Of a stretch of DNA of 64,000 bases, positions 4,926 through 57,397 are shown one piece after another. The DNA lies in assembly GCA_029881805.1 (NCBI GenBank), contig JAOULW010000002.1, positions 1-64,000 of the forward strand, written 5' to 3'. Origin of the DNA: Candidatus Bathyarchaeota archaeon. Its GTDB lineage: Archaea; Thermoproteota; Bathyarchaeia; Bathyarchaeales; Bathycorpusculaceae. The first letter of the stretch is position 1. Each line of letters opens with the position of its first letter. The notes under the pieces were generated by a model. It worked only from the letters and a program-made list of their open reading frames with translations, searched no databases and was not told where the DNA came from. Made by a program: the position numbers and the translations under genes.

Positions 4926-6077
4926 ATGTCTTTGATTGAAAACTTCAAGACATACACGCTCGATTTGTTTCTAGAAGATGCCACTAGACAAGTAGACAAG
5001 GAAAAACGTAGAGTCTATTGTGACGTCCTTATTTCTTATCCCAACATTTTTGATTCATTGCCAAGAATCATGGACTACTACAGTGATCGAAAAAGAAGTC
5101 ACTGGTCAGTCAGTATATCGCCATGTGCCGAAGAAGATTTCTATCTAGTTAGCTTTTTCCCAGAAGAAGTGGAGACTAAGGAGAATCCTCTATTCTTTTT
5201 CTGGAAAATATTCAGGGACGATAAATACGTTACAATCCTTTCATTTTCTCTTCATGGCTACATGGAAATTCGGAGAAGTCTGGACTCTTTTGTGAGATTC
5301 ACAAGAGGTCTCTGGTTTGCTTGGGTGGGCTCCCGTCTTCTGGAAAACTTTGATCTTTTTGTTACGAGAGTGCTTGGAGAACGTGCAAATATTCAAGCAA
5401 GTTTTCAAACGGCAGAAGAGAAAGGTAAAATTCTACCTCGAAAAGTAAGGGTCTTTCCTCTACCACCTAGAAAGTTCGTTCCTCTAGAGGACATCCGAAA
5501 ATGGGCTAAAGACCGATATATCAAGGAGGGGGGAATTCAGACCTTTTCTAATATGAGATACAAAGTAGTCTCCGAGCAAAAAGGTATGGACTTTACATTT
5601 TCAATGACTGATCGCTCAAGAATAACGTTTGAAAGGGGAGATTTCACGCTATTTGTAACATTACTGCGTCCTTTGCTTGATGAAACAAGACGAATATTGG
5701 ATGTCTTGAGAAGAAAGTCCTACACTACTAAAAGAGAATCTACAGTTCTTGGCAAGAGGATCGAGATACAAAGTTTTGATCGGATCGAGTCCTTGGTATT
5801 CAGAAGACCAAAAGAAGCGGAAAAATGGTATGGAAAGATCGTAGATTTGTTTAGTTCAGATATTCCTGAACAGAGACTTCTAAACTTCACGCTATTATCA
5901 GGTAATCCTTACTTCCTCGTCCATATTGTTGACGCAGAAAACAGTTCTTCAGTTTATCTGTCTGCAACTAGTGAAGAACTACAAATAGTCCCAGCAGAAT
6001 CGTCCACGAAAGAGGGGACAGTAGCCAAAATAATCGACTTGCTTCAAGCGGAAGTAGATCCATCCATTTCGGTTTAG
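4926..6077 (+). CDS. Protein A of duplicated A/B system (copy 1)
   Basis: 383 residues, no known family recognised. It is homologous to the protein at 51646-52728: both end with a GNPYF motif (residues 326-330 here), then D-x-x-x-SS and a final strand-rich segment, and both have K-D-x-x-I ... RYKV/ADFKV ... G(D/N)FT-x-F at about residues 190-243. An aromatic segment (about 121-150) also aligns. The partner gene 6094-7182 follows after 16 bp and encodes a PD-(D/E)XK protein, the same order as in the second copy. No transmembrane segments. Recurrent pairing suggests A acts with nuclease B, perhaps as sensor or specificity subunit. Confidence 0.75.
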   Translation: MSLIENFKTYTLDLFLEDATRQVDKEKRRVYCDVLISYPNIFDSLPRIMDYYSDRKRSHWSVSISPCAEEDFYLVSFFPEEVETKENPLFFFWKIFRDDKYVTILSFSLHGYMEIRRSLDSFVRFTRGLWFAWVGSRLLENFDLFVTRVLGERANIQASFQTAEEKGKILPRKVRVFPLPPRKFVPLEDIRKWAKDRYIKEGGIQTFSNMRYKVVSEQKGMDFTFSMTDRSRITFERGDFTLFVTLLRPLLDETRRILDVLRRKSYTTKRESTVLGKRIEIQSFDRIESLVFRRPKEAEKWYGKIVDLFSSDIPEQRLLNFTLLSGNPYFLVHIVDAENSSSVYLSATSEELQIVPAESSTKEGTVAKIIDLLQAEVDPSISV

Positions 6078-6093: not shown

Positions 6094-7182
6094 ATGGGTA
6101 GAATGACCCCTCATGAATTTCTCATAAATGTGGTGGGTTCAACTGTTCTGAACATAGTCCCCTTCCCTACCGCACCAATAGCTCCTTCAGGAGTCCTAGC
6201 GAAGGATTTTGGTTATGAAATTAGATTACCAAAATTTGGAGAGACAGTCCAAGACCTTATGAAGAAGAGAGGGGCAAAAATACCTGATTTGCTTCTGGTA
6301 AACGAGAAGGAAAAACTATTCATAATCGTAGAATGCAAAAGTGACTTTACATTTGAGATGGAAGAAAGACTTTCGAGGCAGATATTATTCTACTCGTCTG
6401 AAGATTTCAAGGAAATATGGAAAGAGATGTTCCCAGACCTAGACAACCTCGAAATCTGGGTATTCTCTTCTAAGAACTTTGTTGAGAAAATAGCCAATTT
6501 CATAAGTCATCAGGAAAAAGACAAGGGTCTTGCAAATATAGTAGTCTGGGGAGTCGAGCTTAGAAAAGCAAGAGAAGAAGCACGTATCCAGAAGTTCTAT
6601 GGAACCCACATGGACAGCAAATTGAATGAACAAATGGAAAGTGACGAACTTGTCTGTTCTCCACCACGAATTGACCTTTTAGTTGATCCCACTCTAGCAT
6701 ATGGAGAAAGAGTTTTCAGAATTGGCAGAAGAATCCTTGGTTTTATTGCTTCTTCCTACTTGAGTGAAAAAGATCGAATAGTGACACTTCAAGATTTTAG
6801 GAAAAGACATCCTGATGCAATCATGACAGATAGAGAATTGAAGAGATGTTTGAGATACTTACTGAAGCTGATTCCTGAAATTGGAGAATTTAACTCAGCA
6901 ACGGGAGAACTAGTCCTAGCAAAAAAACCTTCCTTGGATAAGGTCAAAAATAAACTTGAAAAAATTCAGGAAATGAGTGAAGAGGAGATCAAATTAGACC
7001 TAGCAAAAATAAGCAAAAAAATGCGTGTAGGTATGGCTAAAGTCCCAAAAGCCAAACAGAAGACTAAGATTACTGAATGGCTCCCTAAGAATGCTATCTC
7101 GGAAAGTTCTTGTTTGCCATACTACGATCTTCATGTGGAAGCTCTATTGGGAAATTCCAACTACCTTCTCATGCTCGCCTAG
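6094..7182 (+). CDS. Protein B of A/B system: PD-(D/E)XK nuclease-like, winged-helix C-terminus (copy 1)
   Basis: 362 residues. A PD-(D/E)XK core is visible: P64-D65 (KIPDLLLVNEKEKLF) and E80-C-K82 (IIVECKSDF). The spacing from D to E is 15 residues, the same as in copy 2 (50586-51641). The middle (about 205-285) looks like a winged helix (VTLQDFRKRHP ... TDRELKRCLRYLLKLIPEIG), followed by a charged helical tail. It follows gene A by 16 bp, so it is one operon. Nuclease activity is inferred from motifs. It ends opposite a convergent gene with a strong hairpin between them. Confidence 0.75.
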   Translation: MGRMTPHEFLINVVGSTVLNIVPFPTAPIAPSGVLAKDFGYEIRLPKFGETVQDLMKKRGAKIPDLLLVNEKEKLFIIVECKSDFTFEMEERLSRQILFYSSEDFKEIWKEMFPDLDNLEIWVFSSKNFVEKIANFISHQEKDKGLANIVVWGVELRKAREEARIQKFYGTHMDSKLNEQMESDELVCSPPRIDLLVDPTLAYGERVFRIGRRILGFIASSYLSEKDRIVTLQDFRKRHPDAIMTDRELKRCLRYLLKLIPEIGEFNSATGELVLAKKPSLDKVKNKLEKIQEMSEEEIKLDLAKISKKMRVGMAKVPKAKQKTKITEWLPKNAISESSCLPYYDLHVEALLGNSNYLLMLA

Positions 7183-37282: not shown

Positions 37283-37301
37283 AGATTTTCTGGGTGACCG
37301 T

Positions 37302-40764: not shown

Positions 40765-42876
40765 TTACTGGTATAGGTGAATCCTCTTGTTAACATCATC
40801 GAACAACTGACAAAATCTTTGCTCCAGTGTCTTATCTAATTGAGGAGGTTCTGCTGAGACCTTCAGGATTTCTCTGGCGACAGCTATCTTGTCAAGGTCA
40901 TAGTTTACTTCTTTTAGTAGTTGCTTTGCCCTGTTGCTGATTTTCTCTTTTCCGTCGCCCAGCCTCTTGAGAACATCCTCGTAAGTTAGCTTCAGTATAT
41001 TTCCACTAACATTGTGGAATGCCTTTGCGTAAATCTCCAGAGGGAACAGGTCTTCGAGGTCATACTCTTCAGGTGCAATGTCTGGAAAGGAGGGAAGAAG
41101 CAGTATCTTGCTTTCGGGAATACCTTCTTCGATTGCTTCTTTCTTTGTAATCTGCCCTTCGTGGTCATTATCCAGAACCAAGACGTATGGCAGCCTTTCA
41201 ATCTCAAGTAGAATCGCATGTTCTTTGGCTTTTGACGCTCCCTTAGCCGACAACAATTGGACATCAAGAGAGGGTCGGATTTTGCGTACTTCGTGACGGC
41301 GGAGTAGCTCGAGCATACCGTTAAGTAGAATACCATCTGATGGACCCTCTGCAATAATTGTCACAGCGCCAACATATAGGCTATCAGCCAAGGTCACTCC
41401 AAGGGCGGCCCTTACGGGGTAAAGTACATCCTTGTCGGAAATCGCCCAGAACTTTTCAGAAACCTTAGAGCGGGCTCCCTCCTTTTCAATTAACCGAAGA
41501 CGGAGAAGCTTGTCCCTCGGAATCAGGAAGGGAAGGTGAGTCGCATAGATCGTCATAACGTTGTCTTCGCGATACTTCTCAAAAAGATCCAACAGTTCTC
41601 TATGACCCGTGGGATGAAGGAAGACACCTGGATCATCAAGGAGAAGAATTGCGTTTTTGTACTCAGCTTTTGTGGCTGCGCCAAAATTAATGTAGAAACC
41701 GAAATACCATTGAAAACCCTCACTACCAGAACTGGGTGGTAGAAGTGTCTCGACAGCCTTGGAGTTCTTCGTAAACACCAGCAATCTCCCATCTAGATAG
41801 CGTAGTTCCACATCGAGTACTTCTTGCTTCCATGACTCTCTCAGAAGTTTAGTAGCTTTCCCGCATCCGTTTTCAAGATATACCGGTATCCTAGACTCTT
41901 CGCCGTCGTTTATCAACCGCTCAATCGTATTGAGGTTTATCTCTGCCAAAGTCAAAAAGTTCACGAAGGTCTTGTGCCGGTGCGGTTTCTCTTTCAGTTC
42001 TTCAATGGAGACTTCGTCTTCCATGCGCTCGTAGATTCTAAAGTACATTGTCTTTGGCATTCTTTTCAAAATGTATTCATAGGCTTGTACTTCCAAGTTT
42101 GAACCTAAGAAACCTGACTCGATAATTTCCTTGATCCTGTTCGTTACAGACTTTATGAATCTCTTGAACTCTTCATCGAATTCCAGCTGGTCGATCTCCT
42201 CAAGCTTCTGCACAAGAGGTTGTCCATCTTTCTTGTTCATTATTTTGACATTTGATAGAGATTTGAGGGCCTCATCAAATTGGGGCTTAAATTGGTTGTT
42301 GGGAGGTCTAGTTAGGAATTTAGAATTGGCCTCAGAAGACAGATTCTCCAGTTCCTTCCCAATTTTCTCCTGTGCTGACTCGATTGCAGCTCGCGACGGA
42401 AAACGAATCTCGCTTCCATTCAAGAGAAGCTTATAAAATCCATCATAATATTTCCTGACTTCAAGATAATCGGGAGCTATAAATGCAGGCACATTCAGCG
42501 GTACGTCCATTTCCGCGCTTTTCTGCAACTCGCCTTCCTCAGCCGATGATCCAGTTTGACTTTGCTCCTGCTCAGGGTCTTTAATAATTGAAGCCAGTTC
42601 TTCCTTGTCTTGCGGATCTAGGGCGAATTTTGCCCAGACTATTTCGATATCCGAGCCTTTTAAGTCTCCATCCATGTACTTCTTGGCGACACCCTCCAGT
42701 TGGGTTAAATCAAAACCGCCGCACATCTCATCCATTGAGATTGAAGCGAGACCCTGCAGAAGGCTGCTCTTTCCCGATTCGTTGGGTCCGATTAATGTTG
42801 TTATCTCATCAACCTTGACTGTGCCAGAGTCAAAAAGTGAACGAAAGTTTTGAATACGAAAGCTCTCAAGTTTCAT
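40765..42876 (-). CDS. OLD-family ATPase-TOPRIM nuclease
   Basis: 703 residues. N-terminal ABC-type ATPase: Walker A GPNESGKSS (30-38) and, far downstream, LLLDDPGVFLHP (Walker B region) and the H-loop IYATHLPFL. The C-terminal TOPRIM domain has VTIIAEGPSDGILL (catalytic E) and YVLVLDNDHEG (DxD). OLD nucleases cut or nick DNA in an ATP-regulated way and act in anti-phage defence. No GajB-like helicase is adjacent, so it is a stand-alone (class 1) type. Confidence 0.88.
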   Translation of the reverse strand: MKLESFRIQNFRSLFDSGTVKVDEITTLIGPNESGKSSLLQGLASISMDEMCGGFDLTQLEGVAKKYMDGDLKGSDIEIVWAKFALDPQDKEELASIIKDPEQEQSQTGSSAEEGELQKSAEMDVPLNVPAFIAPDYLEVRKYYDGFYKLLLNGSEIRFPSRAAIESAQEKIGKELENLSSEANSKFLTRPPNNQFKPQFDEALKSLSNVKIMNKKDGQPLVQKLEEIDQLEFDEEFKRFIKSVTNRIKEIIESGFLGSNLEVQAYEYILKRMPKTMYFRIYERMEDEVSIEELKEKPHRHKTFVNFLTLAEINLNTIERLINDGEESRIPVYLENGCGKATKLLRESWKQEVLDVELRYLDGRLLVFTKNSKAVETLLPPSSGSEGFQWYFGFYINFGAATKAEYKNAILLLDDPGVFLHPTGHRELLDLFEKYREDNVMTIYATHLPFLIPRDKLLRLRLIEKEGARSKVSEKFWAISDKDVLYPVRAALGVTLADSLYVGAVTIIAEGPSDGILLNGMLELLRRHEVRKIRPSLDVQLLSAKGASKAKEHAILLEIERLPYVLVLDNDHEGQITKKEAIEEGIPESKILLLPSFPDIAPEEYDLEDLFPLEIYAKAFHNVSGNILKLTYEDVLKRLGDGKEKISNRAKQLLKEVNYDLDKIAVAREILKVSAEPPQLDKTLEQRFCQLFDDVNKRIHLYQ

Positions 42877-43670: not shown

Positions 43671-44018
43671 TCAAGTTTTAGATTCGAGCAAGCTGTCCGT
43701 TGAGTCTTTCATCTGAGTCCATGTATCAATGAATGCTTCAATTCTTTTGTGGCTGTAGGGAGAACCCTTGTCTAATCGCTCCGTCCAAAATCTTAAAGCA
43801 AGAGCCATCAGGACGCTTAGTTTCATCATTTCGTTCAAGCTGAACCATATAGGTTTGACTTTGTTAGTTTCTTCTGTTTTTCTATGTGTTGACTCCATCC
43901 TGATGTAAAAAATAGCATTTGGATAAGGGTCTGGTGGATTAGGGTCTATTCCAGCGATTAGTTTAATCTCATGTGTCTTCGTTTTCTTGGAAAATTCTTC
44001 AACCAATTTTTTCCTCAT
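43671..44018 (-). CDS. Hypothetical protein
   Basis: 115 residues, not recognised. A beta-rich N-terminal half (HEIKLIAGIDPNPPDPYPNAIFYIRM) is followed by helices (MMKLSVLMALALRFWTERL). It lies 53 bp downstream of the zinc-ribbon gene on the same strand. Confidence 0.55.
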   Translation of the reverse strand: MRKKLVEEFSKKTKTHEIKLIAGIDPNPPDPYPNAIFYIRMESTHRKTEETNKVKPIWFSLNEMMKLSVLMALALRFWTERLDKGSPYSHKRIEAFIDTWTQMKDSTDSLLESKT

Positions 44019-44383: not shown

Positions 44384-47300
44384 GTGAAAGTGATGGGTGC
44401 TTCACCTTTAATCTCAAGGTTTGATTCTAAATTTTGGGAGGATAAACTTCGTGAGTTGGGTTATCCTCTTAAAGTTATGGTATTGGACATGCCGACGTTG
44501 AGGGAGCAGAGGGCTATCCTTTCTGATATTGAGGCCTCTAGAGTGTTGAGGCTTTATGTTGATGACTTTGTTGAAGTCGCTTTGGTCGAGTTTGACAGTG
44601 GTGCTGACTTGAGAAGAAGTCTTTGCACTAGGACAACACGGTCTTGGAAAGAAAACAGGCTGATAAAACCATTATTGATCTTTACGAATGGAATAGATAG
44701 CTACGCAGTTATTGTACCAGGAAAAGGGATAGGTGGCGAGGCGAAGGTTCTAGGGCTTTCGGATAGGCTTTATAGGACTGATCTTGAAGTCCTAGAGTCG
44801 ATGCGTTTTCCTGGGAAAGCAGAGGAATTAAGTAGGAACTATGATAGCGACTTCTTCCCATATCAAAAGGTTAGGGATGAATTCTTCAAGGGTTACAGAG
44901 ACCTTTATGAGAGAGTTGAGAAGGCTGTCGAGAAGGAACTAAAGGGTGAAAGCACTTCTTATGCTCAACGTTTTCTAGGCAGGCTCATGTTTCTGTATTT
45001 TCTACAAAGGAAAGACTGGCTCAAAGCGAACAGGCGATTCATAGACACGATTAAGGATTACAAGGAGCTGAATGTCTTATTTTACGAAAGTCTTAATCGA
45101 GAGAGTACGCCGGGGATACCGTTTCTGAATGGCTCGCTTTTTGAAAGAGAGGACTACATGACTGCACAGATGGAGAATCGTCTGTATTCAAAGATGAATC
45201 AGTTATTCAAGGATGCTCGGAAATTCTTCAGCGACTATAATTTCACTGTGGACGAGACATCACCTCTTGAGGTTGAGGTTAGTATTGACCCTGCATTGAT
45301 TGGTACTGTGTTTGAGAACATGTTGCCAGAGTATGAGAGAGGCTCAAAAGGCACCTTCTATACTCCCAGGGGTGAAAGCTCATTCATTTGTAGACGAGCG
45401 CTCGCTAATTACTTGGGTTTGGAAGACGCGATATCTCCGGATGGCAAGTCTTTCTACGACGGTCTTTCTAAATATCTTAAGAGTCTTGCGAAGAGCAAGA
45501 GTGAGAAAGAAGTTAGAGAGTTTAGGGAGAAACTTCTGTCTCTGAGGATTCTTGATCCTGCTGTGGGTTCTGGCGGCTTTTTGCTTGTTATGATGCAGGA
45601 GATTATAGGGCTTATTCAAGAGGCTGAAGCGGTTGTGGGTTGGAAGTCTGATGTGGAGTTGTATAAGAAGAGGATTCTTCCTAACTTGTATGGTTTTGAC
45701 ATTGAGCCTGAAGCCATAGAAATCGCTAGGCTTAGGCTTTGGCTTTCGTTGATTATCGATCAAAAAGAACCTGAACCTTTGCCTAATTTGGATATGAACA
45801 TAATAGTGATTAAGGATTCTCTCCGTCAGCCAGAAGCTCAGAGGTCAATCGATCCCAAAGTGGAAGCGTTAAGGGAAAGGTTTGCTGAGATTAAAGCAAA
45901 GTATCTAAATGAGCACGATGCAAAGAGCAAGAAGAGACTAAAGGACCAGCTTCAGGAAATATCAGAGGAGACTGCAAAGAGAACTGGAACGGACCCGAAC
46001 GTGATAGAGGCTTACATGCCTCAAAAGGCTGACATTATCGTTATGAATCCGCCCTATGTCAGACAGGAATCTCTTCCCCAGGCAAAGAAGGATTATTATG
46101 CAAATGAGTACTCTCTTAGCAAGAAGTCTGATCTCTTTGCCTATTTTCTTGTACGTAACTTGAGTTTGCTTGTCGATGACGGCGTGGCTTCAGTTATATC
46201 ATCTGACAAATGGCTTGAAACAGATTATGGCGTATCTCTTCAGAAGAAGCTCAAGGACCATCTTATTGCTATATACGGTCAGCGAGAGAGGACTTTTGGT
46301 GCGGACATAAACACAGTCATAACCATGTATGGAAGAAAGAAGAGAGTCGAGCCTGTTCATTTCGTCTACATAGAATCATACGTTGGGAAGCAAATCAGAC
46401 GAGACATATTGAGGAACAGAAGTGATCTAATCCCGGGCAAATGGTTCTATCTGAGGGCACCGAAAATGTTCGTTGATATTATGCTGCCAAGACTAGGCAA
46501 TAAACTAGAGGATTTTGCTGAAATTAAGTATGGAATCAAGACAGGAGCGAATGATTTCTTCTATATGAAAGATGTAAGCCAGCTTTACGAGGCAGATTAC
46601 CTTTCGGATCCCAAGAGTTTTGAAAGATTGGGTATAAAAGCGAAAACGGAAGAAGAACTTAGAGCGCATGGTCTTATCTATATTGAAAATGAAGGCGGGA
46701 CAAGATTCGTCATTAATAAAAATGATGTCATACCTATCATTCGAAGTCCACGACAACTGGGCTCATATTTCATAAAGATACCTGAAACACTCTGTCTTTT
46801 AGTTGAATCCCCAGGAGAGTTCACCAAGAAGTACATATCTTGGGGGGAATCCCAATCCATCGAAGTTACTAGAGGGGCCAGGAAAAAATCAGTCGTAGGC
46901 TATGACAAACTTGAAAGCCTAAAGAGCAGACCCATCTGGTACAAGCTCCCCCATCTCAAACCTGGTAAGATATTGTTGCAGAAGTCCATGATGGATAGAT
47001 TGTATGTTCCTTATTGCCAAATACCAGTGCTATGTGACAACAGGTTGTATATTTTGGGATGCAAAAATCCTGATAATCTATGGGTATATCTCACCTCGAC
47101 TCTCTTTCTCCTGACCATGGAACTTCATTGTAGACGTTTGGGTGGAGGTGCGGCAGATCTGATGGTGGAGGACTACAACTCGATACCAGTCCCAGATCTT
47201 TCAAAAGCGTCAATCAAATATGACAAGATGCGGTTGTCCAAAAGACCAGTTCTTAGATACAATGAAGAAGTCCTCCAATCTGATAGAAGGGAGCTGGATG

Positions 47301-47461
47301 TAGCTGTTCTAAGAGCAATTGGTTTCGAGAGGCCAGAGAAGATAATCGATGATTTGTGTGCTGCCTTCACTGAAGCTGTCGAGGACCGTATTATCAAGGC
47401 TAGAGGTCTCGAGCCAGTGGCTGTTATCGCTGAAGGGAATGAGGGTATAGCAGATGACTAA
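44384..47461 (+). CDS. Eco57I-type N6-adenine DNA methyltransferase
   Basis: 1025 residues. SAM motif LDPAVGSGGFLL (about residue 389) precedes catalytic NPPYVRQE (about 554), the gamma-class order. The N-terminal 350 residues are unrelated to methylation and may hold a nuclease-like or interaction part; the C-terminal part (about 700-950) has a target-recognition region (LEDFAEIKYGIKTGANDFFYM). It overlaps the PLD-helicase gene by 8 bp. The pair resembles parts of DISARM, BREX or type I-like systems, where the methylase marks self DNA. Confidence 0.85.
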   Translation: MKVMGASPLISRFDSKFWEDKLRELGYPLKVMVLDMPTLREQRAILSDIEASRVLRLYVDDFVEVALVEFDSGADLRRSLCTRTTRSWKENRLIKPLLIFTNGIDSYAVIVPGKGIGGEAKVLGLSDRLYRTDLEVLESMRFPGKAEELSRNYDSDFFPYQKVRDEFFKGYRDLYERVEKAVEKELKGESTSYAQRFLGRLMFLYFLQRKDWLKANRRFIDTIKDYKELNVLFYESLNRESTPGIPFLNGSLFEREDYMTAQMENRLYSKMNQLFKDARKFFSDYNFTVDETSPLEVEVSIDPALIGTVFENMLPEYERGSKGTFYTPRGESSFICRRALANYLGLEDAISPDGKSFYDGLSKYLKSLAKSKSEKEVREFREKLLSLRILDPAVGSGGFLLVMMQEIIGLIQEAEAVVGWKSDVELYKKRILPNLYGFDIEPEAIEIARLRLWLSLIIDQKEPEPLPNLDMNIIVIKDSLRQPEAQRSIDPKVEALRERFAEIKAKYLNEHDAKSKKRLKDQLQEISEETAKRTGTDPNVIEAYMPQKADIIVMNPPYVRQESLPQAKKDYYANEYSLSKKSDLFAYFLVRNLSLLVDDGVASVISSDKWLETDYGVSLQKKLKDHLIAIYGQRERTFGADINTVITMYGRKKRVEPVHFVYIESYVGKQIRRDILRNRSDLIPGKWFYLRAPKMFVDIMLPRLGNKLEDFAEIKYGIKTGANDFFYMKDVSQLYEADYLSDPKSFERLGIKAKTEEELRAHGLIYIENEGGTRFVINKNDVIPIIRSPRQLGSYFIKIPETLCLLVESPGEFTKKYISWGESQSIEVTRGARKKSVVGYDKLESLKSRPIWYKLPHLKPGKILLQKSMMDRLYVPYCQIPVLCDNRLYILGCKNPDNLWVYLTSTLFLLTMELHCRRLGGGAADLMVEDYNSIPVPDLSKASIKYDKMRLSKRPVLRYNEEVLQSDRRELDVAVLRAIGFERPEKIIDDLCAAFTEAVEDRIIKARGLEPVAVIAEGNEGIADD

Positions 47462-50400
47462 AATCATCGACAATTCCAAAGAAACGCTAGCTTCAGCATT
47501 ATGTAAGGAATTCTGTGATCTGTCCGAAATCGCGATTGCATCTGCTTATTTCAATATTCGGGGATACGGTGCTTTAAGGCAAGCACTACAAGGAAAACCG
47601 CTCCTATTCCTTCTAGGGCGAGAACCGACTGAAAGCATCAAATGGGAAGAAGAAGTCCTAAGAGAACTAGAAGAAAAAGAAGATGACAGAGACTACTTCA
47701 AACTTCTGCAAGATGCCATCAAATACTTTGAAGACTCTAAAACACAGATAAGAACTGTAACAGGCCCATTCTTTCATGGAAAAGCATACATCGGCGCCAA
47801 CCCAAGCCTAAAAGAAGCCAGAAACGGCGTCGGCTCGGTAGGTTCAAGCAACTTCACTTACGGAGGTCTAGTATACAACAAAGAACTCAACATGCTAAAC
47901 ACAGACAGAGAAGTAGTCAAAGAACTAATCGAATGGTTCTTCAATCAATGGAACACCGCCCAAGACTTCAAAGAAACATTCCTATCCTTCCTCAAAAACT
48001 ACGTCACAACAAGAAGCCCCTACGAGGTCGTCGCAAAAGCCCTCTACGAAACATACAAAACAAACATAGAAGTATCCGCAGAAAACCTCAAACTCAAAAC
48101 GCTCTATGCACATCAAATCCTCTCATTCAGAGACGCATCAGCAAAACTAGAAGCTCACCATGGGGTCATCATTGCAGATGCAACAGGCCTAGGAAAAACA
48201 AGAACCGCATTAAGAGTAGCTTTAGACGCCATAAGAGACGGAAAAAAAATTCTCCTAGTAGCCCCAAAAAGCATTCTCGACACTACTTGGGACGACGAGA
48301 TGGAGAAAACGAATATCCACCTCAAATGCGTATCGTCAGAAAAACTCTCAAGCGACCCCGACAGCGTCGTCAAACATTTTTCAGACCGAGATTTCATAAT
48401 AGTAGATGAAGCCCACTATTACCGCAGCCCATCAACTAATAGATACGCCGCCCTAAGAGACCTAATCATAAAGCAAAACGCCCAAGTGGTACTAGCTACA
48501 GCAACACCAGTCAACAACAGCCTCATGGACCTCTACTTCCTCCTATCCCTATACCTAAAAGAAGACAGCATAAACGACCTCACAGGTCAGACACTCAAAG
48601 GCTACTTTACAGCCAACCAAAAACGATGGCTACAACACCAAAAAATCGAAATGGAACCCGTCCTAGAACGCTTCATAGTGAGACACTCCAGAGAACTAGC
48701 CAAAGCCCTAGACAAAGAAGGAAAACTAGACTTTCCCCAAAGAGTCTTAGATTCAGACCCACGCTGCAAATACACAACAAACATAGATTACCAAAAAATC
48801 GACGAAATGCTCGATAAAATGAACTTCACCTTCTACGACCTCTCCGTCGACAAAATAGCAGGCCAAATGAAACTACCCGACGGCGCTCCAATATCTCAAG
48901 CAGTAGAAGCCACAAACAGAGAATTCCTCAAAAAACTTATCAAAATAATCATCGTCATAAACATATTCAAAAGACTCGAGAGCAGTGTCGAGGCATTCAG
49001 AGCAACACTCACATCGCTTGACGAATACATAGTAAAAGCAACCAAATACGCCCAAGAAAAAGGCTACTTTGTTCCCCCAGCTCTTAAGGGAGACCCGCTC
49101 TTTACCCTCGATGAAGGAATACCAGATCCAGAAGAACTATTCTCAAAACCAAAATATGCAGCAATGATCAACTCCCTAAAGCTAACCTCCCAAGAAGTTA
49201 AGGAATTCATCTCCAATTGCAATGAAGACAGAGAAATGATCAAAAAACTTATCGGCGTTATTCCACCCACGGATAAGAAATGCAACCAATTCAAAGACAG
49301 ACTTGCAGACATAATCAAACAGATATCACTCGACTCCAACAACGGAGTCATCATATTCTCCCAATATACCGCCACCGCAACATACCTTCACGACAGACTA
49401 AAAGACGAAAAATTCAAACATCCCATCCTGCTCACAACAGGGACAATATGCAAAGACCGTGAAGGCAAACACAGCAACAAAACAAGCGTAATAAGAGATT
49501 TTCAAAAAGGCGGAGGAATACTCGTAAGCACAGACGTTCTAAGCGAAGGCCAAAACCTACAAAACGCGCAATACGTGATAAACTACGACTTCCCATGGAA
49601 CCCCGTCGTACTTATCCAAAGAATTGGCAGAATAGACCGAATGCTTTCCCAACATGAGGTAGTCTATCTTACAAACCTACTCCCCAAAAACGGAGACCCA
49701 AACGATCCAGCAAGCCTTGAACATTTCATTGGGCTAATGCAGAAGCTCTACAGCAGACTAGAAGCCATCAGATCCACAATAGGTTTAGACGCATCCACCC
49801 TAGGAGAAGAAGCCGCACCAAAAGATTTCGGATTCCAAGAAGCAATCGCCAAAAACGACCCAACACTACTTGACGTAATGACAAAAGAACTCGAACAATT
49901 CACAAACAGCCCAATGGACGCCCTCGCAAAAATAATGAGCGAAAAAGGACTAGACTGGCTACAATCACTTCCCAAAGGCATAGGCGCCTACAAACAAGGC
50001 AGACGCCAAGGACTATTCATACTCTTCAACGACGGAGAAGATTACTACTGGAGACTCAAATACTACGACAAAGGAAAAGAAACAATATCCTCTCCTAACG
50101 AAATCATCAACGTCCTCCTACAAGGGGAAAACAAAAACAGCGGAGAAAACATCGCCTATGAAAAGCTCATCGAACGCATGATCCAAATCAAACAAGAACT
50201 CAAAACCGAAATTGAAGCCAGCAAAAGGAGAGAAAAGGCCATAGAAGGATTTCCCGTCCGCGCAACATATATCATCAAAGAAATCTACGATGAACTAGCA
50301 AAATCCAGTGAAGAGGGCGAAAAGCTAGCAATAGCATTCAGAAAAGCCTCCAGCAGACAAAGCGTAGTCACCGCCTTGAACCGCGCCAGAAGAGAAGGAA

Positions 50401-50519
50401 GCCTTCTACAAAAGGCAAGAGAACTATTACTTAAAGAAGAGCCTCCACCAACAGCCCAAACCGCAGAAGACAAAGAAACAAAACTCACAAGAGTATGTTG
50501 GTGCTGGATCCAACCTTAG
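47454..50519 (+). CDS. PLD-nuclease/SNF2-type helicase fusion
   Basis: 1021 residues. The N-terminal phospholipase D-like domain has HGKAYI (about 108) and GSSNFTYGGL (about 130). The helicase core follows: DATGLGKTRTAL (Walker A, about 240), IIVDEAHYY (DEAH, about 316), LATATPVNN, then C-terminal motifs VIIFSQYTATATYL and STDVLSEGQNLQ...QRIGRIDR. The likely role is ATP-driven DNA translocation and cutting in a restriction-type system with the overlapping methyltransferase. From about 47640 codon use turns strongly A/C-rich, unlike the methyltransferase, hinting at a different origin. Confidence 0.88.
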   Translation: MTKIIDNSKETLASALCKEFCDLSEIAIASAYFNIRGYGALRQALQGKPLLFLLGREPTESIKWEEEVLRELEEKEDDRDYFKLLQDAIKYFEDSKTQIRTVTGPFFHGKAYIGANPSLKEARNGVGSVGSSNFTYGGLVYNKELNMLNTDREVVKELIEWFFNQWNTAQDFKETFLSFLKNYVTTRSPYEVVAKALYETYKTNIEVSAENLKLKTLYAHQILSFRDASAKLEAHHGVIIADATGLGKTRTALRVALDAIRDGKKILLVAPKSILDTTWDDEMEKTNIHLKCVSSEKLSSDPDSVVKHFSDRDFIIVDEAHYYRSPSTNRYAALRDLIIKQNAQVVLATATPVNNSLMDLYFLLSLYLKEDSINDLTGQTLKGYFTANQKRWLQHQKIEMEPVLERFIVRHSRELAKALDKEGKLDFPQRVLDSDPRCKYTTNIDYQKIDEMLDKMNFTFYDLSVDKIAGQMKLPDGAPISQAVEATNREFLKKLIKIIIVINIFKRLESSVEAFRATLTSLDEYIVKATKYAQEKGYFVPPALKGDPLFTLDEGIPDPEELFSKPKYAAMINSLKLTSQEVKEFISNCNEDREMIKKLIGVIPPTDKKCNQFKDRLADIIKQISLDSNNGVIIFSQYTATATYLHDRLKDEKFKHPILLTTGTICKDREGKHSNKTSVIRDFQKGGGILVSTDVLSEGQNLQNAQYVINYDFPWNPVVLIQRIGRIDRMLSQHEVVYLTNLLPKNGDPNDPASLEHFIGLMQKLYSRLEAIRSTIGLDASTLGEEAAPKDFGFQEAIAKNDPTLLDVMTKELEQFTNSPMDALAKIMSEKGLDWLQSLPKGIGAYKQGRRQGLFILFNDGEDYYWRLKYYDKGKETISSPNEIINVLLQGENKNSGENIAYEKLIERMIQIKQELKTEIEASKRREKAIEGFPVRATYIIKEIYDELAKSSEEGEKLAIAFRKASSRQSVVTALNRARREGSLLQKARELLLKEEPPPTAQTAEDKETKLTRVCWCWIQP

Positions 50520-50585
50520 GAATAATTAGGCGATTGGAGGCCTCGCTTGATCGTTCTTATACTACGACTGAGCTTAAAGCTACGC

Positions 50586-51641
50586 TTAGAAGTATTCTGT
50601 CAATGGTCTTTCTTTTCTGGGTCCCTTATGACGTATCGGTTTTAGTGTACCTATTGATCTTTTCTGCCTCTTCATTTCTTTCAGGCGCAATTTGGAAAGT
50701 TTCCTACAAATTACTTCTTGTATCGGTTTTCTAGTTCTTAAAGTTGGAATAGGAATGAACCATGTATTTGGTTTCCCAACAATCTTATCTATCAATCTCA
50801 GCTCCCAAAATTTTTCAAGAGCCTCTCTTATCCAGCTACGTTTCGCTTGGATGGTAGGAGTGTCAAACTCGTGCCACGAAGGAAAAAGCTTCTTCATCTG
50901 TTCATAAATCCAATCTAATTCTATTTCATAGGACTTTTTTTCTGGAGCCTGTTGAAACGGTGCGAGAATATACTGGACTAGAACCGTCATGGTATATTGT
51001 ATGGGGGGCTTTTCTTTCACAAAAGTAAGAGAAAACCTCAGATAGGTTAAGACTGCTTCAGGTATTAAAATGCCACCTGGAGCCTGTACGAGTTTTTCTA
51101 TTTGGTCATTTCTTGTTTTTCCATAAACACAAAATAGTCTTAACTCTTCTTTGCGTTCACCACCCTTTGGTGGCGTTATTGTCCACGACCATAGCGCGAA
51201 TCCATGTTCCTTAAGAAAAGAATATCCTTTCTCATTTGACAGCTTTTTTATCATGTCAACCGTTTTTTGAACGTCGTCAATATGACAGACAAGAACTAGA
51301 TCGTGGCAATCAACACTCTTTACGCTTGGTTTCCAGTTTGAACATGGTTTAGTATATTTCTCTAATTCTTTGATCTCCTCTTCCAACAAGTCTTCCCTAG
51401 AAGGTAAGGACCATTTCAATTCAAAGATCAAACCTTTCTTTTCATTTTCGCAAAGTACCACTATGTCTGGGGTTAACTCACGTCCTTCAGCATTAATTAG
51501 CTTATGTTCAATACCAACAAAATCCAGACCTTTCAATTGTGTTGTGACTGTATGATAAACGGCGAAAGAAACTGCTACGGTATCCGCATACTTTCGATAA
51601 TCTTTTGTACATTGGTCTTCATAGACGCGAATGTTTGCCAA
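50586..51641 (-). CDS. Protein B of A/B system: PD-(D/E)XK nuclease-like (copy 2)
   Basis: 351 residues. P58-D59 (LTPDIVVLCENEKKG) and E74-L-K76-W (LIFELKWSL) form the PD-(D/E)XK core; D-to-E spacing is 15, exactly as in copy 1 (6094-7182). The C-terminal part (about 235-320) looks like a winged helix with PNTWFIPIPTL, and ends in a very basic tail. It follows gene A by 4 bp and converges on the PLD-helicase with 66 bp between ends. Probably the nuclease of the pair. Confidence 0.75.
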   Translation of the reverse strand: MANIRVYEDQCTKDYRKYADTVAVSFAVYHTVTTQLKGLDFVGIEHKLINAEGRELTPDIVVLCENEKKGLIFELKWSLPSREDLLEEEIKELEKYTKPCSNWKPSVKSVDCHDLVLVCHIDDVQKTVDMIKKLSNEKGYSFLKEHGFALWSWTITPPKGGERKEELRLFCVYGKTRNDQIEKLVQAPGGILIPEAVLTYLRFSLTFVKEKPPIQYTMTVLVQYILAPFQQAPEKKSYEIELDWIYEQMKKLFPSWHEFDTPTIQAKRSWIREALEKFWELRLIDKIVGKPNTWFIPIPTLRTRKPIQEVICRKLSKLRLKEMKRQKRSIGTLKPIRHKGPRKERPLTEYF

Positions 51642-51645
51642 TCAA

Positions 51646-52728
51646 CTACACCGGAATGCTTTGGATTTCTCCGTCTCCAAGAATCTCCTGGATACGATTC
51701 GTCAATCTCCAAGCAGACTGCGGTGTAGCTCGAATAATTGGAGTTATGGTTACGATCTTGCCGAGAACTGTTACACCAAATGAAGACCCATCTCCATAGT
51801 CGCCTAAATTTGCCACAAAATAGGGATTTCCGCCATGAATAACTGAGGAGGAATAACTCTTGCTGATCTTCTCTGTTAATCTTTGAAGTTGCTCCTTGTC
51901 AAAATCAAAGTTATAGGAAATGCTGAATGGACTCAGCTTTATTTTTCCATCAGAAATAATGCGTTCCCTATGTGCGTAGAATCGTTTCCAATTTATCCCA
52001 AGTTCAATTGCTCTCAATACCACGTTTTCGTAGAATGCTGTAAAGTTTCCGAAGGCAAGTTTGCATAATCCACGCCTTGAAATATGAGCCCTAAGCAAAA
52101 TTCTGTTCGTTTCGCTATCTCGGACTTTGAAATCTGCTCTATCAACTGCAATTCTGTAATCTTTCGTTAGCTTCAGCAATTCTTCTTCAGCGTTTTCTTC
52201 CCACAATTGCAACGTTCCTTTTTCGGAGAATGCACTTTCTATTTTCTTAGGTTCTCGCTTGACGGTGATAAAAGTTAATGTAGTTTTTCCATGATATGCA
52301 TTTTTTATTTCAGTTAGGAGAGCAGATATTTGATAATAGTTTAGGTAAAGTCTTGAAACGGATGGGTATAATGCATTGAAAAGTCTTAGCAAAGCTCTAT
52401 TAACAAAATAGGATTCCTCATTGCAGAAAGCTATCCAGACGCCTTCATGGCTAGTATCTAAAATGGCATATCCCTTTGTAATATCTTTCCGGACCAGTTT
52501 CTTGAGCTGCAGACCATACAAACCATCTTCAATTTTCCTTAGGTTTACATTGTAAACTCTAGCCAGTCGTTCTCTCTGTCGAACTATCTCTTCCAAGTCC
52601 TCAATCTCAAGTTCAGATAACAAAATTATTGTTTTCAAAGGCGGTCTTTTCTTTCTGGTAGTATATAGCTTGTCAAAGAATAATTGCATGCCAAGACGGC
52701 TTTCGATGCTGGAAGTAGCTTCTTTCAT
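51646..52728 (-). CDS. Protein A of A/B system (copy 2)
   Basis: 360 residues, no named family. GNPYF at 300-304 is followed by D-x-x-D-x-SS and a strand-rich end; LTKDYRIAVDRADFKV ... LCKLAFGNFTAF (about 187-232) aligns with copy 1 (IRKWAKDRYI ... RYKVV ... FERGDFTLF). The N-terminus (about 30-75) is not shared and may be a wHTH. Overall identity with 4926-6077 is low, but motif order and partner gene are conserved, so the two are distant homologues, not a recent copy. Confidence 0.75.
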   Translation of the reverse strand: MKEATSSIESRLGMQLFFDKLYTTRKKRPPLKTIILLSELEIEDLEEIVRQRERLARVYNVNLRKIEDGLYGLQLKKLVRKDITKGYAILDTSHEGVWIAFCNEESYFVNRALLRLFNALYPSVSRLYLNYYQISALLTEIKNAYHGKTTLTFITVKREPKKIESAFSEKGTLQLWEENAEEELLKLTKDYRIAVDRADFKVRDSETNRILLRAHISRRGLCKLAFGNFTAFYENVVLRAIELGINWKRFYAHRERIISDGKIKLSPFSISYNFDFDKEQLQRLTEKISKSYSSSVIHGGNPYFVANLGDYGDGSSFGVTVLGKIVTITPIIRATPQSAWRLTNRIQEILGDGEIQSIPV

Positions 52729-52901: not shown

Positions 52902-53354
52902 CTATTCCCAAATATCTATCAGGAAGCTTGTTGGCGCCCATTGATGCCCTCTTTTTTCAGCCACTTTTTGACCTAATTCCTTCGTCAGTTTCTTGTTCAT
53001 GCGCTGGATCCTACGTGTAACATCCCACCTTTTCAAGCCGTATTCACCTAGCTCTGTAGCTATAGCCGAAGGCAGTAAACCCCCTACACCCTTCTGCATC
53101 AAACACGTAATAATTTCAACGTCTACCTCATCTTCACATGCAACTTTCTGAATATAACTAGGCTGAAAACTCATCCACTCACGCAAACCCGCCATTAAAG
53201 TCCGCGTTCTAAGGTCAATTTGGCTGATTTTTCCCTCAAGAAGCCTTATCCGCTCGAGTATGTACTGTAGCCGTCCAACCTTCTCAGCCCTAGTTCTACG
53301 TTTCCCAGAACCCTTCTGTGCAACCTTTTCAGAGGTTCCATGCACACACTGCAC
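52902..53354 (-). CDS. Hypothetical winged-helix-like protein
   Basis: 150 residues, GTG start with AGAGGAAGT before it. A basic N-terminus and a coiled coil (YILERIRLLEGKISQIDLR) are followed by a winged-helix-like region (DVEIITCLMQKGVGGLLPSAIATELGEYGLKRWDVTRRIQRM). Last gene of the maintenance operon running from 59207 on the minus strand. Confidence 0.6.
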   Translation of the reverse strand: MQCVHGTSEKVAQKGSGKRRTRAEKVGRLQYILERIRLLEGKISQIDLRTRTLMAGLREWMSFQPSYIQKVACEDEVDVEIITCLMQKGVGGLLPSAIATELGEYGLKRWDVTRRIQRMNKKLTKELGQKVAEKRGHQWAPTSFLIDIWE

Positions 53355-53553: not shown

Positions 53554-55320
53554 CTAGCCTCCTATGACGCTTCGTTTCAGTCGGTCCACAATCTCGTCTA
53601 TGACTCCGTCAGGCGCGTTGGGACGAATCTTTCGGATGTTCTCTGCAACCCAGTATGGAAAGCGGTTTCTGAAGGCTTTTCTTCCCTTCTTGCTTGCTTC
53701 CCACAACAAGCCCTTAGCTTCCAACGTCTTCATGTACGCCGCATTCGTGCTCTGAGTATAGCCAGTCTGAATCTCTTCGGGTAGGAAAGTTACTTCTGGA
53801 TCCATACGTAGACAAGCCTTCAAAACAGCGCTTCCCGCTTGTCCACGCCTCTTCAAATCCTGCAGAAAAGCCTCAGCATCCCTAATCCAACTCCTATTGT
53901 TTGCATCGTCCAGAGTCTGCTGGAAAAGCTCCTTGCGCAACTCGTCCTCTCGCCTGTAGGTTTCCAGCTCAGCCTTGTATTTGTCCCGCTCTTCCTGCAG
54001 GGCCTTAACATCCTTCGGAATCAACTCCAAATCCAAATGGTCAGCCGTCTCCACGATCAAATCAGCCCAGTCACCCCACAACTCCCGAATCCTCGAGAAC
54101 TTCTCCTCGAATTCCCCAGCTATCTTTTGAGTCTCTGTCAATCGTCCTTCAAGGTCGTTTACTTGGTTCTCTAAAGCCTGAATTTTGCCTAGCAGCTTCG
54201 GCTTCTCTTCAGCCGTGAGAACCTGAGCCTCTAACTCCTTGATTCTGGCTCTCAAACGCTCAGCCTCTAAGCCCAAGGCTTCCCTTCCAGATGTAGCCTC
54301 AGAAAGCTGCGATTCCAAAGACTGAACCTTGCTAAGAAGCTGCTTTCTCTCAGTCTCCAAAGCCTCAACTCGCCTTAGGATGTCTTCAGGAACAGCAGTG
54401 GGCATTGCCGGAGGAGCCTTAATAATCTTGGATAAGTCGGCTATGGCATGCTCCAGCTCAGGCGTCTCCACAGCCTTCGCAATAGGCGTCTTACCGCCAT
54501 GAGTGCATAGGCGCTCTTTGCTACGTACCTTAATATGCTCCGCAGTGAGACCCCTCACGAAGGCTGTTCCTTTCGGCAACTTCTGAATCTCATCAATCTC
54601 TTCCTTCGTGAAACCGCTCTCCCTCAGCCAAGACAGGTCAGCAGGATCCACCAGCTTGAAAATGAGCCTAGTAGGACACTGGCTTAACACAGCCTTCGCC
54701 ACCTCAGCTGCACGCCTGGCAATACACACATAGCCTAAACCACGATGACGACCTCGAGCCGCAACCTCCCAAGCCCAATAAATCACCTTATCCTGCAGCT
54801 TCTTAATTCCCGGCAACCTAACCCTACCAATCTCAGGAATCAAGACATGTGCCTCTTCCATGAAAACCACTAAAGGCATGTTGTATTGCCCCTCAGCTTC
54901 GTACAAAGCCTCGAGAAAATTCCCCAAAACAGCATACTGATCTGCCATCGTAGCGTTTCTTGAATCGAGAACGACAGAGTACCCTTTCTCTGCAATGCGT
55001 CTAGCCAAGGTTGCAGCCGTTTCAGACGTCACTATCAAATCAGCCTTGTAACCCTTAGGACGCCCCACGGGCTTGCCAACGGCAGCAACAATAACTGGAT
55101 ACCGCTCTTTAAGCGTCCAATACTCGCCCTCAGGATCAATAACCACAAAAGGCTGCTTAACTTCGCAGAGCTGTTCACACATCTTGCCCGCTTCATAACT
55201 CTTGCCAATCCAGCGAATTCCAATGATGGCTAGGGGCTGACTAATCATATAGTCGTGAACATTAAGCTCTAAATCTCCGTCGCCTTCAATGACGGCTGGC
55301 GAAATAACAGCGTCGCTCAT
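53554..55320 (-). CDS. HerA/FtsK-superfamily ATPase with long coiled coil
   Basis: 588 residues. Walker A GIRWIGKS (34-41) and Walker B PLVVFMEEAHVLIP (about 149-162) match the HerA/DUF87 type; the segment ARGRHRGLGYVCIARRAAEVAKAVLSQC is the usual Q/R-finger region. Residues about 290-480 form a coiled coil, and the C-terminus is a winged helix (about 500-585). HerA-like ATPases pump DNA in conjugation, packaging or partition. It is coupled by ATGA overlap with the small Cys-rich gene 55317-55475. Confidence 0.82.
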   Translation of the reverse strand: MSDAVISPAVIEGDGDLELNVHDYMISQPLAIIGIRWIGKSYEAGKMCEQLCEVKQPFVVIDPEGEYWTLKERYPVIVAAVGKPVGRPKGYKADLIVTSETAATLARRIAEKGYSVVLDSRNATMADQYAVLGNFLEALYEAEGQYNMPLVVFMEEAHVLIPEIGRVRLPGIKKLQDKVIYWAWEVAARGRHRGLGYVCIARRAAEVAKAVLSQCPTRLIFKLVDPADLSWLRESGFTKEEIDEIQKLPKGTAFVRGLTAEHIKVRSKERLCTHGGKTPIAKAVETPELEHAIADLSKIIKAPPAMPTAVPEDILRRVEALETERKQLLSKVQSLESQLSEATSGREALGLEAERLRARIKELEAQVLTAEEKPKLLGKIQALENQVNDLEGRLTETQKIAGEFEEKFSRIRELWGDWADLIVETADHLDLELIPKDVKALQEERDKYKAELETYRREDELRKELFQQTLDDANNRSWIRDAEAFLQDLKRRGQAGSAVLKACLRMDPEVTFLPEEIQTGYTQSTNAAYMKTLEAKGLLWEASKKGRKAFRNRFPYWVAENIRKIRPNAPDGVIDEIVDRLKRSVIGG

Positions 55321-55475
55321 TCCATCCTCACCTTCAAAGCCTTAGTCCTCAAACATATGACGAAATCTACAACCACGCAGCTCTGCGACTCTTTGATCCA
55401 CCAGGCACACACTTCGCGGATGCATGTGGCCCGTCGTATAGGGCATAGTGGCGGCGGCTTTTCTTCATTGCTCAC
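55317..55475 (-). CDS. Small Cys-rich (zinc or Fe-S) protein
   Basis: 52 residues with GTG start; its first bases overlap the stop of the SWIM gene (GTGA), and its stop overlaps the start of the HerA-like gene (ATGA). The core CPIRRATCIREVCAWWIKESQSC has the pattern C-x6-C-x4-C-A-W-W, then a hydrophobic part with another Cys. Similar CAWW-type small proteins are common in archaeal mobile DNA and probably bind metal. Confidence 0.72.
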   Translation of the reverse strand: MSNEEKPPPLCPIRRATCIREVCAWWIKESQSCVVVDFVICLRTKALKVRME

Positions 55476-55882
55476 AGCAAAACCTCCTCACGTTCTGTCT
55501 CAACACTGGTCCACTCCTTCAAATGCGAACTGTAAAACTCATCCTCTTGTTCTACCGCTTCAAAGCGTCCCAGAACCTCAGCCAACTTCCTAGCAATAAG
55601 GTGATGACACAGCGGAGCCTTTCCGTCGATGACGCTGAAATAGAAATCATCACAAGAACAATAGCCAACCACATGGTAAATGAGATATTCACGGTCTCTG
55701 CCAACCACAATCCACACTACTCGCCCACTGGGCCTAAACACGTACTTCTTCACCCTCCCGTCCTTCAAAGTCTCCCAAGCCCTGTTAAACCGACTACCAT
55801 AAAGCCTCCAAAGCTCCACAGGGTCAGAGTCGATGCGAATTCTGCTCAAAGCTTCAACAACAACTCTATAGTCCACTTTCAC
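55472..55882 (-). CDS. SWIM zinc-finger protein
   Basis: 136 residues. The SWIM motif is visible as YCSCDDFYFSVIDGKAPLCHHLIARKLAEVL (CxC-xn-CxH). The N-terminal strand-rich part (VVWIVVGRDREYLIYHVVG) is the usual SWIM lead. SWIM domains bind DNA or protein and in archaea often partner recombination factors (family knowledge). Encoded directly after ParB with one base between. Confidence 0.85.
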   Translation of the reverse strand: MKVDYRVVVEALSRIRIDSDPVELWRLYGSRFNRAWETLKDGRVKKYVFRPSGRVVWIVVGRDREYLIYHVVGYCSCDDFYFSVIDGKAPLCHHLIARKLAEVLGRFEAVEQEDEFYSSHLKEWTSVETEREEVLL

Positions 55883-55883
55883 C

Positions 55884-56693
55884 CTATCCTTCTCTGGGCT
55901 TCAGTCTAATCTCACACCAAACCCAGTTAACCACATACTCTGCCCCGCAAACCTCACAAGCCCACTCAGAAAACTTCGGCTGCTCAGCACCATGCTCCTC
56001 CACAAACTTTTGCAGATCTTCAGGAAGAGGCGCAACAATCTCGACTGGCTTAGCCAGAATCTCCTCTTTACTCTCTGGATTATCCTTTATAGCGTGAACC
56101 AATGCCTCCGTCTTCTTGAAGCTCAGCTTATCACTAGCAACTTTTGAGACGACAGCTGGCTGGTCTTCTTTTGGAAGCTCCGCAATCTCTCGGGCATGAG
56201 CCGTTTCTATAACACGTGTTATAAGCGCTTCACGAGTTTCAGGCGCAAGCCTCTCCGCAAGCGCTAGGCGATAGCTAACCCATGCCTGGGTCTTCCTAAA
56301 CCTCTCCGCAACATCAGTCTGCGTATAGCCAAACTGCTCCATCATCTTTTTAATGTGCAAGCCCTCTTCAAGCTCTTCCAAACGCTTGCCATGCATCTGA
56401 TTAACTCGCATGGCCAGTAAACAGGCCTCCTCGTCACTCAGTCTTCTAACCTCAGCCCTAACCACTCCATGACCAAGCTTCTTCAAAGCCCGAATCCTAT
56501 GCTCTCCATCAATCACCTGGTAGACATTCGGCTTCGTCGGATGCCCTCTAACAATGATGGGCTTAAGCTGTCCTTCCCGCTCTATGCTCTCAGCCAACTC
56601 CTCAACGTAGCCCTCACTGAACGTCTTTCTAGGCGAGAAAACATCCGTCTCCAACTGCTCCAGCTCAAGATTCACTGTCGAAACTTCGCTCAT
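55884..56693 (-). CDS. parB: ParB-type partition protein with zinc ribbon
   Basis: 269 residues. The ParB N-terminal (CTPase/nuclease-fold) motif is LKPIIVRGHPTKPNVYQVIDGEHRIRALKKLG, with GEHR. The KorB-like HTH follows (FGYTQTDVAERFRKTQAWVSYRLALAERL). The C-terminus has CEVCGAEYVVNWVWC, a zinc-ribbon-like end unusual for ParB. No ParA is adjacent, so partition may depend on the HerA-like ATPase or a distant ParA. It overlaps the next upstream gene by 4 bp. Confidence 0.88.
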   Translation of the reverse strand: MSEVSTVNLELEQLETDVFSPRKTFSEGYVEELAESIEREGQLKPIIVRGHPTKPNVYQVIDGEHRIRALKKLGHGVVRAEVRRLSDEEACLLAMRVNQMHGKRLEELEEGLHIKKMMEQFGYTQTDVAERFRKTQAWVSYRLALAERLAPETREALITRVIETAHAREIAELPKEDQPAVVSKVASDKLSFKKTEALVHAIKDNPESKEEILAKPVEIVAPLPEDLQKFVEEHGAEQPKFSEWACEVCGAEYVVNWVWCEIRLKPREG

Positions 56694-57397
56694 TTCTTCA
56701 CCGGCTTACGAGCTATGCAAAATTCTTCTTGACTTTTCAACGGGCTACAACTCACAGAGAGAAAATAAGCCTCTTGATAGGTAATGTAGAGGATTAATGG
56801 AACGTAGCCATTTTTCGCTATTTTATCGATGGTTTTTCTAGAGATTCTGCAATTGTTTCCAAACTTGACATCCACAGCATAGGCTTCCCCGTTCTTGAAG
56901 GCGAGAATGTCATAGCCAGCGTGGACTCCGATCGAATTTAAGTTCTCAATTATGCTGAATCCGTTGTCCCTCAATACTTTTTCAGCAATTTTCTCTCCAA
57001 CATTTCCTAGAATTGTTCCCGTCCTGAGCCTAGGAGTCTTTAATACTCCGATTTTTCTTAGCGTTCTAGCCTTGCTACACAACCCAACCAAGTTTCTTCC
57101 AAGCTTCTTAGCGATGAAACTGGGCCTATATCCCTTTTCATACATTTCCACAAGGAGTTTTTCTTCCTCCTCTGTCCATTTTCTGCCCTTGAACCAAGGC
57201 TGCAGAGCCCTATCAGAACGAAGCCTATAGAGAAAGTATGGATCCTTCTTTAAACCAAGCTTCATTCCCCAGTGCTCAATTGTCCCCACATGAACACAGT
57301 ATTTCCTAGCGAGCTCTAGGTTAGAAGTCACAGGATACAGTTCAACAAACCCTTTCCTCTGTTCCTCCGAAAGTCTATTCCAAACCCACCTAGCCAT
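56690..57397 (-). CDS. HTH protein with PD-(D/E)XK nuclease domain
   Basis: 235 residues. N-terminal HTH/SANT-like units (about 15-110; KWTEEEEKLLVEMYEKGYRPSFIAKKLG) are followed by a nuclease core: GNVGEKIAEKVLRDNGF, then GYDILAFKNGEAYAVDVKFG (D and the D/E-x-K). This resembles Holliday-junction-resolvase-like nucleases of mobile elements. It overlaps the neighbouring genes by 4 and 8 bp. Confidence 0.75.
   Translation of the reverse strand: MARWVWNRLSEEQRKGFVELYPVTSNLELARKYCVHVGTIEHWGMKLGLKKDPYFLYRLRSDRALQPWFKGRKWTEEEEKLLVEMYEKGYRPSFIAKKLGRNLVGLCSKARTLRKIGVLKTPRLRTGTILGNVGEKIAEKVLRDNGFSIIENLNSIGVHAGYDILAFKNGEAYAVDVKFGNNCRISRKTIDKIAKNGYVPLILYITYQEAYFLSVSCSPLKSQEEFCIARKPVKK

Follow-up and report, generated by a model that had tools for sequence, protein, structure and literature searches.

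We analysed a window of 64,000 nucleotides (positions 1 to 64,000 of contig JAOULW010000002.1, a 372-kb contig of the 2.2-Mb genome of a Candidatus Bathyarchaeota archaeon, assembly GCA_029881805.1) and describe here two adjoining genes, B and A, which lie beside a DNA methyltransferase-helicase gene pair and which, judging from the comparison of loci across genomes, are a module autonomous from and independent of that pair. A/B is a new, unnamed module of recognisable parts and a candidate two-gene defence of the nuclease type. We give about an even chance to the reading that it is a horizontally mobile module combining a clamp-docked, nuclease-fold protein A with a DNA-binding protein B, and that it most likely limits invading replicons. 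The features of the module are as follows.

51646..52728, minus strand: gene B, first of the B-A pair, 360 amino acids; predicted fold like that of Iml3/CENP-L, RdgC and RexA, with a TBP-like C-terminal half
51706..51828, minus strand: B signature NPY (301-303), D310, D313-G314-S315, P330 and R341; invariant or nearly invariant columns among 18 homologues
50586..51641, minus strand: gene A, 351 amino acids; predicted PD-(D/E)XK core (~1-190), winged helix (~203-308) and probably disordered tail
51414..51470, minus strand: A catalytic motif PD-x(14)-ELK (P58, D59, E74, K76), from the alignment
50589..50612, minus strand: last 8 residues of A, ERPLTEYF, a PCNA-interacting protein (PIP)-like sliding-clamp motif resembling the tails of host FEN1 and NucS

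B and A form a conserved pair in archaea and bacteria

Profile searches seeded by weak matches in two genomes of the phylum and on plasmids returned 22 B genes. Their archaeal carriers are Thermoproteota, haloarchaea, and metagenome-assembled genomes (MAGs) titled Thaumarchaeota and Nanoarchaeota, while the bacterial carriers fall into four phyla: Actinomycetota, Bacteroidota, Planctomycetota and Verrucomicrobiota-type (Limisphaerales) MAGs. At 21 of the 22 loci the gene after B is A, in the same orientation and at a spacing of -62 to +16 bp, and the distance matrices of the two proteins are closely correlated (r 0.93, permutation p 5e-4). Both are real genes, with homologues conserved in two domains of life. 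The pair is rare and patchy (4/250 genomes of the host's class); several copies lie on plasmids and many on chromosomes or long genomic contigs. Read from these genomes, this is how a mobile accessory module carried by cells and plasmids would be distributed. We also considered that A/B might be virus-borne and rejected this, as viral collections (IMG/VR) searched with A and several B alignments and phage records searched with B held no relatives, the short degenerate patterns being such that some may be missed. In a Limisphaerales MAG (L018:3866-4954), A is broken into two reading frames, through either a sequencing error or pseudogene formation.

Neither A nor B belongs to a family in Pfam, NCBIfam or PADLOC, whether queried one at a time or in sets of 16-18 homologues; in PADLOC-DB 2.0 and NCBIfam 20 the sets gave no more than scattered single-member matches, at E 0.0077 or worse. 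Nothing significant came from profile comparison of A or B with solved structures or from a PHROGs search with B, and we found no description of the B-A pair in the open-access literature.

A is predicted to have a nuclease fold

The catalytic motif of the window A reads PDIVVLCENEKKGLIFELK (alignment form TPD-x(14)-ELK), and 14 of 21 A homologues have the full PD...(D/E)xK motif. An AlphaFold2 model of A built with nine sequences (pTM 0.61) shows the alpha-beta-beta-beta-alpha-beta order expected of the PD-(D/E)XK fold. Its first ~190 residues match the structures of BsmI, XisH and AF2093 with moderate support (Z ~6), residues 203-308 match MukE-like winged helices, and residues 328-351, which have very low model confidence, are probably disordered. 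Taken together, these features predict that A is a PD-(D/E)XK nuclease-fold protein, which may cut DNA.

The nuclease domain of A matches those of the type IIS restriction endonucleases BsmI and PaqCI structurally, but A has no fused specificity domain or dedicated methyltransferase and carries a clamp motif instead. EndoMS/NucS is a nuclease of the PD-(D/E)XK type. Found in archaea and actinobacteria, it has an activity that is raised by the sliding clamp (PMC8228993), and A is a candidate clamp-docked nuclease. However, none of 16 A members matched NucS_C (PF01939) with Pfam at E 1, and A further differs from NucS in having a winged helix, in sharing a bicistron with B and in being a rare mobile gene, here in a host that has its own NucS.

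Clamp-motif types on A tails differ between archaea and bacteria

We scored tail motif patterns in the last 25 residues of A and compared the results with tail shuffles and with neighbouring proteins. Bacterial A proteins end in QPSLF, QLSLF, QMSLF, QTTLRF, QPSLPF, QRNLF or QGSLF, and 7/7 of these proteins carry the beta-clamp pattern, against 0/14 archaeal A. Archaeal tails include QSSLEEYF, QSSLDDF, QGPLDRFL, KKLDDFF, ERPLTEYF (in the window) and KTKITEWL (in a second window protein, A', described below); a strict PIP core was present in 6 of the 14 archaeal and none of the 7 bacterial proteins, with looser PIP-like motifs in most archaeal A. Tail shuffles gave p 2.5e-4, a descriptive value, and among the neighbouring proteins the patterns occurred in 0/65 bacterial and 2/169 archaeal controls. 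The same test detected no clamp-motif signal in B tails. Host FEN1 (TTLEKWF) and host NucS (RKLEAFF) have tails of the same form as that of the window A, and since neither has Q at position 1, Q is not required there in the host lineage. The switch of motif with domain of life is a stronger argument than the p values for the tails, and we predict that the A tail docks on the sliding clamp, namely PCNA in archaea and the beta clamp in bacteria.

B resembles RdgC and RexA in its predicted fold

The AlphaFold2 model of B, built with 11 sequences (pTM 0.76), was matched by Foldseek to Iml3 (2.5e-5), CENP-L and RdgC (6.5e-4, prob 0.99) and, lower down, to CENP-N, RnlA and RexA (0.017). VIA placed residues 12-249 with the Iml3/CENP-L group (Z ~8) and residues 262-360 with TBP-like or KA1-like folds. 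RexA, RdgC, IML3 and CHL4 share a DNA-binding fold (PMC11077077), and B, which resembles lambda RexA and RdgC (with Iml3/CENP-L) in predicted fold, probably also binds DNA. In contrast with these proteins, B has an added conserved C-terminal domain and no sequence match to them: none of 18 B members was hit by the RdgC or RexA Pfam models. RexA also differs in its partner, which is the membrane protein RexB rather than a nuclease-fold protein such as A. Because the quality of the superposition is low, we term B RdgC/RexA-like and not a member of that family, and we treat the likeness as a lead.

The methyltransferase-helicase pair is a separate system

44384..47461, plus strand: Eco57I-type N6-adenine DNA methyltransferase, 1025 amino acids (Pfam, PADLOC); part of a separate restriction-modification-like system and found with the helicase on plasmids too
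47454..50519, plus strand: PLD(HKD)-SNF2 helicase, 1021 amino acids (Pfam, PADLOC); belongs to the same restriction-modification-like system as the methyltransferase

An earlier note on this DNA had proposed that these two genes and A/B make up one composite restriction system. The layout it described is exact by open reading frame (ORF) coordinates, with the methyltransferase and helicase overlapping by 8 bp and A converging on the helicase across a gap of 66 bp (50520-50585). When the four-gene set was searched for in other genomes, however, the two pairs were found apart. The closest relatives of the PLD-SNF2 helicase, which come from plasmids of cyanobacteria and Deinococcus and from two genomes of the host's archaeal family, lacked A/B at 7/7 loci within the stretch read; these relatives adjoin methyltransferase-like genes, and the window-type methyltransferase is clearly recognisable at four of the seven (L036-L039). 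Conversely, the helicase was beside B at 0/21 other B loci. This is essentially the pattern that the earlier note had itself named as speaking against its proposal. A single composite system of four genes, for which the convergence in the window would speak, is therefore largely refuted already by the comparative context of the helicase and A/B loci, and we regard it as extremely improbable. The note had also suggested that A/B might be an extra module or the missing nuclease part; A does have nuclease hallmarks and A/B is a separate module, but not part of a four-gene system.

The methyltransferase matches Eco57I in Pfam (1e-27) and the helicase matches PLDc_2 (7e-9), SNF2 (8e-14) and Helicase_C (8e-20), while their best PADLOC matches are REase_MTase_IIG and C3a139 'HKD+Snf2'. 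The PADLOC check that the earlier note had called for thus returned known families for these two proteins and none for A/B, and the pair is an ordinary, already known sort of restriction-modification-like system. The note had remarked that it recalls BREX or DISARM. In type-2 BREX-related (BR/Hma) systems, an HKD nuclease is joined to the N-terminus of an SNF2 helicase (PMC12839542), and the window pair shares with these systems both this fusion and an N6-methyltransferase. However, DUF3780 was not found among the genes scanned beside the pair, and the whole genome gave 0 matches to the DUF499 AAA+ ATPase (PF04465). We therefore rejected membership of the BR systems, and because DUF499 is missing from the genome we consider the pair at most a reduced relative of them, a comparison that leaves A/B aside. 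DrmB, PglZ and BrxL were likewise not found in Pfam and PADLOC scans of the nine proteins at 40.8-55.3 kb, in agreement with the note, and a weak DrmA match reflects the common helicase core.

Methyltransferases and a third gene at other A/B loci

A DNA methyltransferase lies within 7 kb of A/B at 7/22 loci (the window, G390, L014, L017, L020, L006 and L007), compared with ~1.4 expected. These enzymes belong to five classes (Eco57I, HsdM, N6_N4, DUF1156 and C5), and in two haloarchaeal genomes the sole PF00145 C5 methyltransferase is 15 bp and ~1.5 kb from A. The enrichment has a Poisson-binomial p of 1e-4, with per-locus probabilities estimated by hand from per-genome counts, which were obtained by family searches and take in some RNA methyltransferases. 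Since methyltransferases of unrelated classes near A/B exceed expectation, it is possible that A/B acts as the nuclease part for some methyltransferase, for example at a subset of loci. At locus L012, a SIR2-like gene adjoins the pair. Together with the plasmid copies and the lack of relatives in the viral collections searched, these neighbours give A/B a defence-like setting.

Three haloarchaeal loci (L009, L020 and L030), in which A has neither the catalytic E nor the K, share a gene of 444-461 amino acids upstream of B (L009:6338-7720, L020:7351-8682 and L030:6510-7886). Its product has one or two hydrophobic C-terminal segments, and the gene is confined to loci where both residues are gone from A (Fisher p 0.026, kinship ignored); a conserved third gene was found at these three loci only. 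This arrangement is reminiscent of lambda RexA with its membrane protein, and the third gene together with the catalytic loss in A suggests that the effectors of A/B are exchangeable.

A second pair and other genes in the window

4926..6077, plus strand: B', a divergent paralogue of B, 383 amino acids (B profile E 5e-7; enlarged profile including B' 8e-66)
6094..7182, plus strand: A', the A counterpart by position and motif, 362 amino acids, with the PD-(D/E)XK motif PDLLLVNEKEKLFIIVECK
7060..7083, plus strand: KTKITEWL, a PIP-like motif near the end of A'; KTKLDKWL stands at the matching place in L028

A' is too divergent to be reached by the A profile. B' is 76% identical to its L028 relative, and B' and A' have relatives in another genome of the order at 66-76% identity. 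Because this stretch combines low GC (0.34-0.37) with an archaeal phage-type integrase gene (10490-11326) and a tRNA-Leu gene (12437), it is probably an integrated element.

The surroundings of the methyltransferase-helicase pair are those of a defence-type island, which supports this side of the earlier note. An OLD-like ABC ATPase-TOPRIM gene (40765-42876) adjoins the pair, and an AbiEi/AbiEii-like pair of the type IV toxin-antitoxin kind (37272-38769) lies upstream of an Orc1/Cdc6 gene. Genes at 53554-57397 encode a HerA-like coiled-coil protein, a ParB-like protein and a Myb-like DNA-binding protein, which suggests that the defence genes sit within an integrated plasmid-like element. A further DNA methyltransferase, N6_N4_Mtase (PF01555), is encoded at 25160-26977. 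A 159-amino-acid ORF with a TTG start at 42975-43454 matches the Rad51 domain of Pfam in its second part alone (86-244 of 244) and looks like a truncated RadA copy. Two ORFs, at 43671-44018 and 52902-53354, were rejected as added components of the module, as neither has a homologue near other B-A pairs. An Rfam scan of the window detected two tRNAs and nothing else.

Possible functions of A/B

In the reading that we favour, B would recognise or hold abnormal, recombining or foreign DNA, the sliding clamp would bring A to newly replicated DNA, A would cut DNA at or behind forks, and the pair would thereby restrain foreign replicons. Several points weigh against this. The function of A/B is deduced from sequence and models, with pairing, co-inheritance and the catalytic and tail motifs read from the former, the folds and clamp docking predicted, and DNA binding, cutting and defence inferred. 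The A model is of only moderate quality at its pTM, and the fold matches of B are middling (VIA Z 8 to 9 with large root-mean-square deviation; Foldseek TM ~0.25-0.28). Cutting is not universal, since at least the catalytic lysine is missing from 7 of the 21 A proteins, three of them actinobacterial and four haloarchaeal. The tail patterns, although of known motif types, were written after the tails had been inspected, and 3/14 archaeal tails (L007, L011 and L014) have a degenerate motif or none. L013 is a lone B without A, close to a contig end. Finally, the methyltransferase enrichment was noticed post hoc, with RNA methyltransferases among the counts, and its p becomes 0.007 when the background is doubled.

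Chief among the rival readings is a mobile repair module of the NucS type, in which a clamp-bound, NucS-like nuclease and an RdgC-like restrainer of recombination repair fork breaks or protect the carrier element. That RdgC limits RecA and aids fork restart (PMC11077077), that the NucS nuclease of archaea and actinobacteria is stimulated by the clamp (PMC8228993) and that A tails bear clamp motifs would all fit such a role. We nevertheless consider it unlikely, since the patchy rarity of the pair in the class, its carriage on plasmids and its methyltransferase neighbours are more in keeping with a mobile gene for accessory functions or defence, the host encodes a NucS already, and degenerate nuclease sites would be odd for repair. 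The unrelated methyltransferase classes near A/B and the two sole C5 enzymes of haloarchaea could instead point to a generic restriction part that is used with any nearby methyltransferase, the latter shielding host DNA from A. Such a role appears improbable, given that 15/22 loci have no DNA methyltransferase within 7 kb, that a single specificity cannot fit so many classes and that the adjoining methyltransferases often have their own restriction gene, as in the window and L006. It is quite improbable that A/B serves plasmid maintenance or incompatibility, as a weapon of replicon against replicon or as an aid to segregation: many copies are chromosomal or on long genomic contigs and no conserved partition gene stands beside the pair, although several copies are on plasmids, ParA or ParB is near L009 and L010, ParB and Orc1/Cdc6 are encoded in the window, and Iml3/CENP-L are centromere proteins.

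A broader form of the anti-invader reading, which we put forward tentatively, would make A/B the first example of a family of systems built on the sliding clamp, with a tail that switches between PCNA and the beta clamp across domains, an RdgC/RexA-fold partner, and swappable effectors, either the nuclease A or, in some haloarchaea, a membrane-anchored protein. Whichever form applies, a previously unannotated two-gene module spans archaea and four bacterial phyla and makes a testable prediction, namely that the last residues of A bind PCNA in archaea and the beta clamp in bacteria. Clamp docking, if true, would mean that a nuclease is aimed at replicating DNA, which would give defence a further strategy, coupled to replication. 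The module would also extend a fold like that of RdgC and RexA, so far met in recombination control, in phage exclusion and at kinetochores, to archaea, where it may serve immunity.

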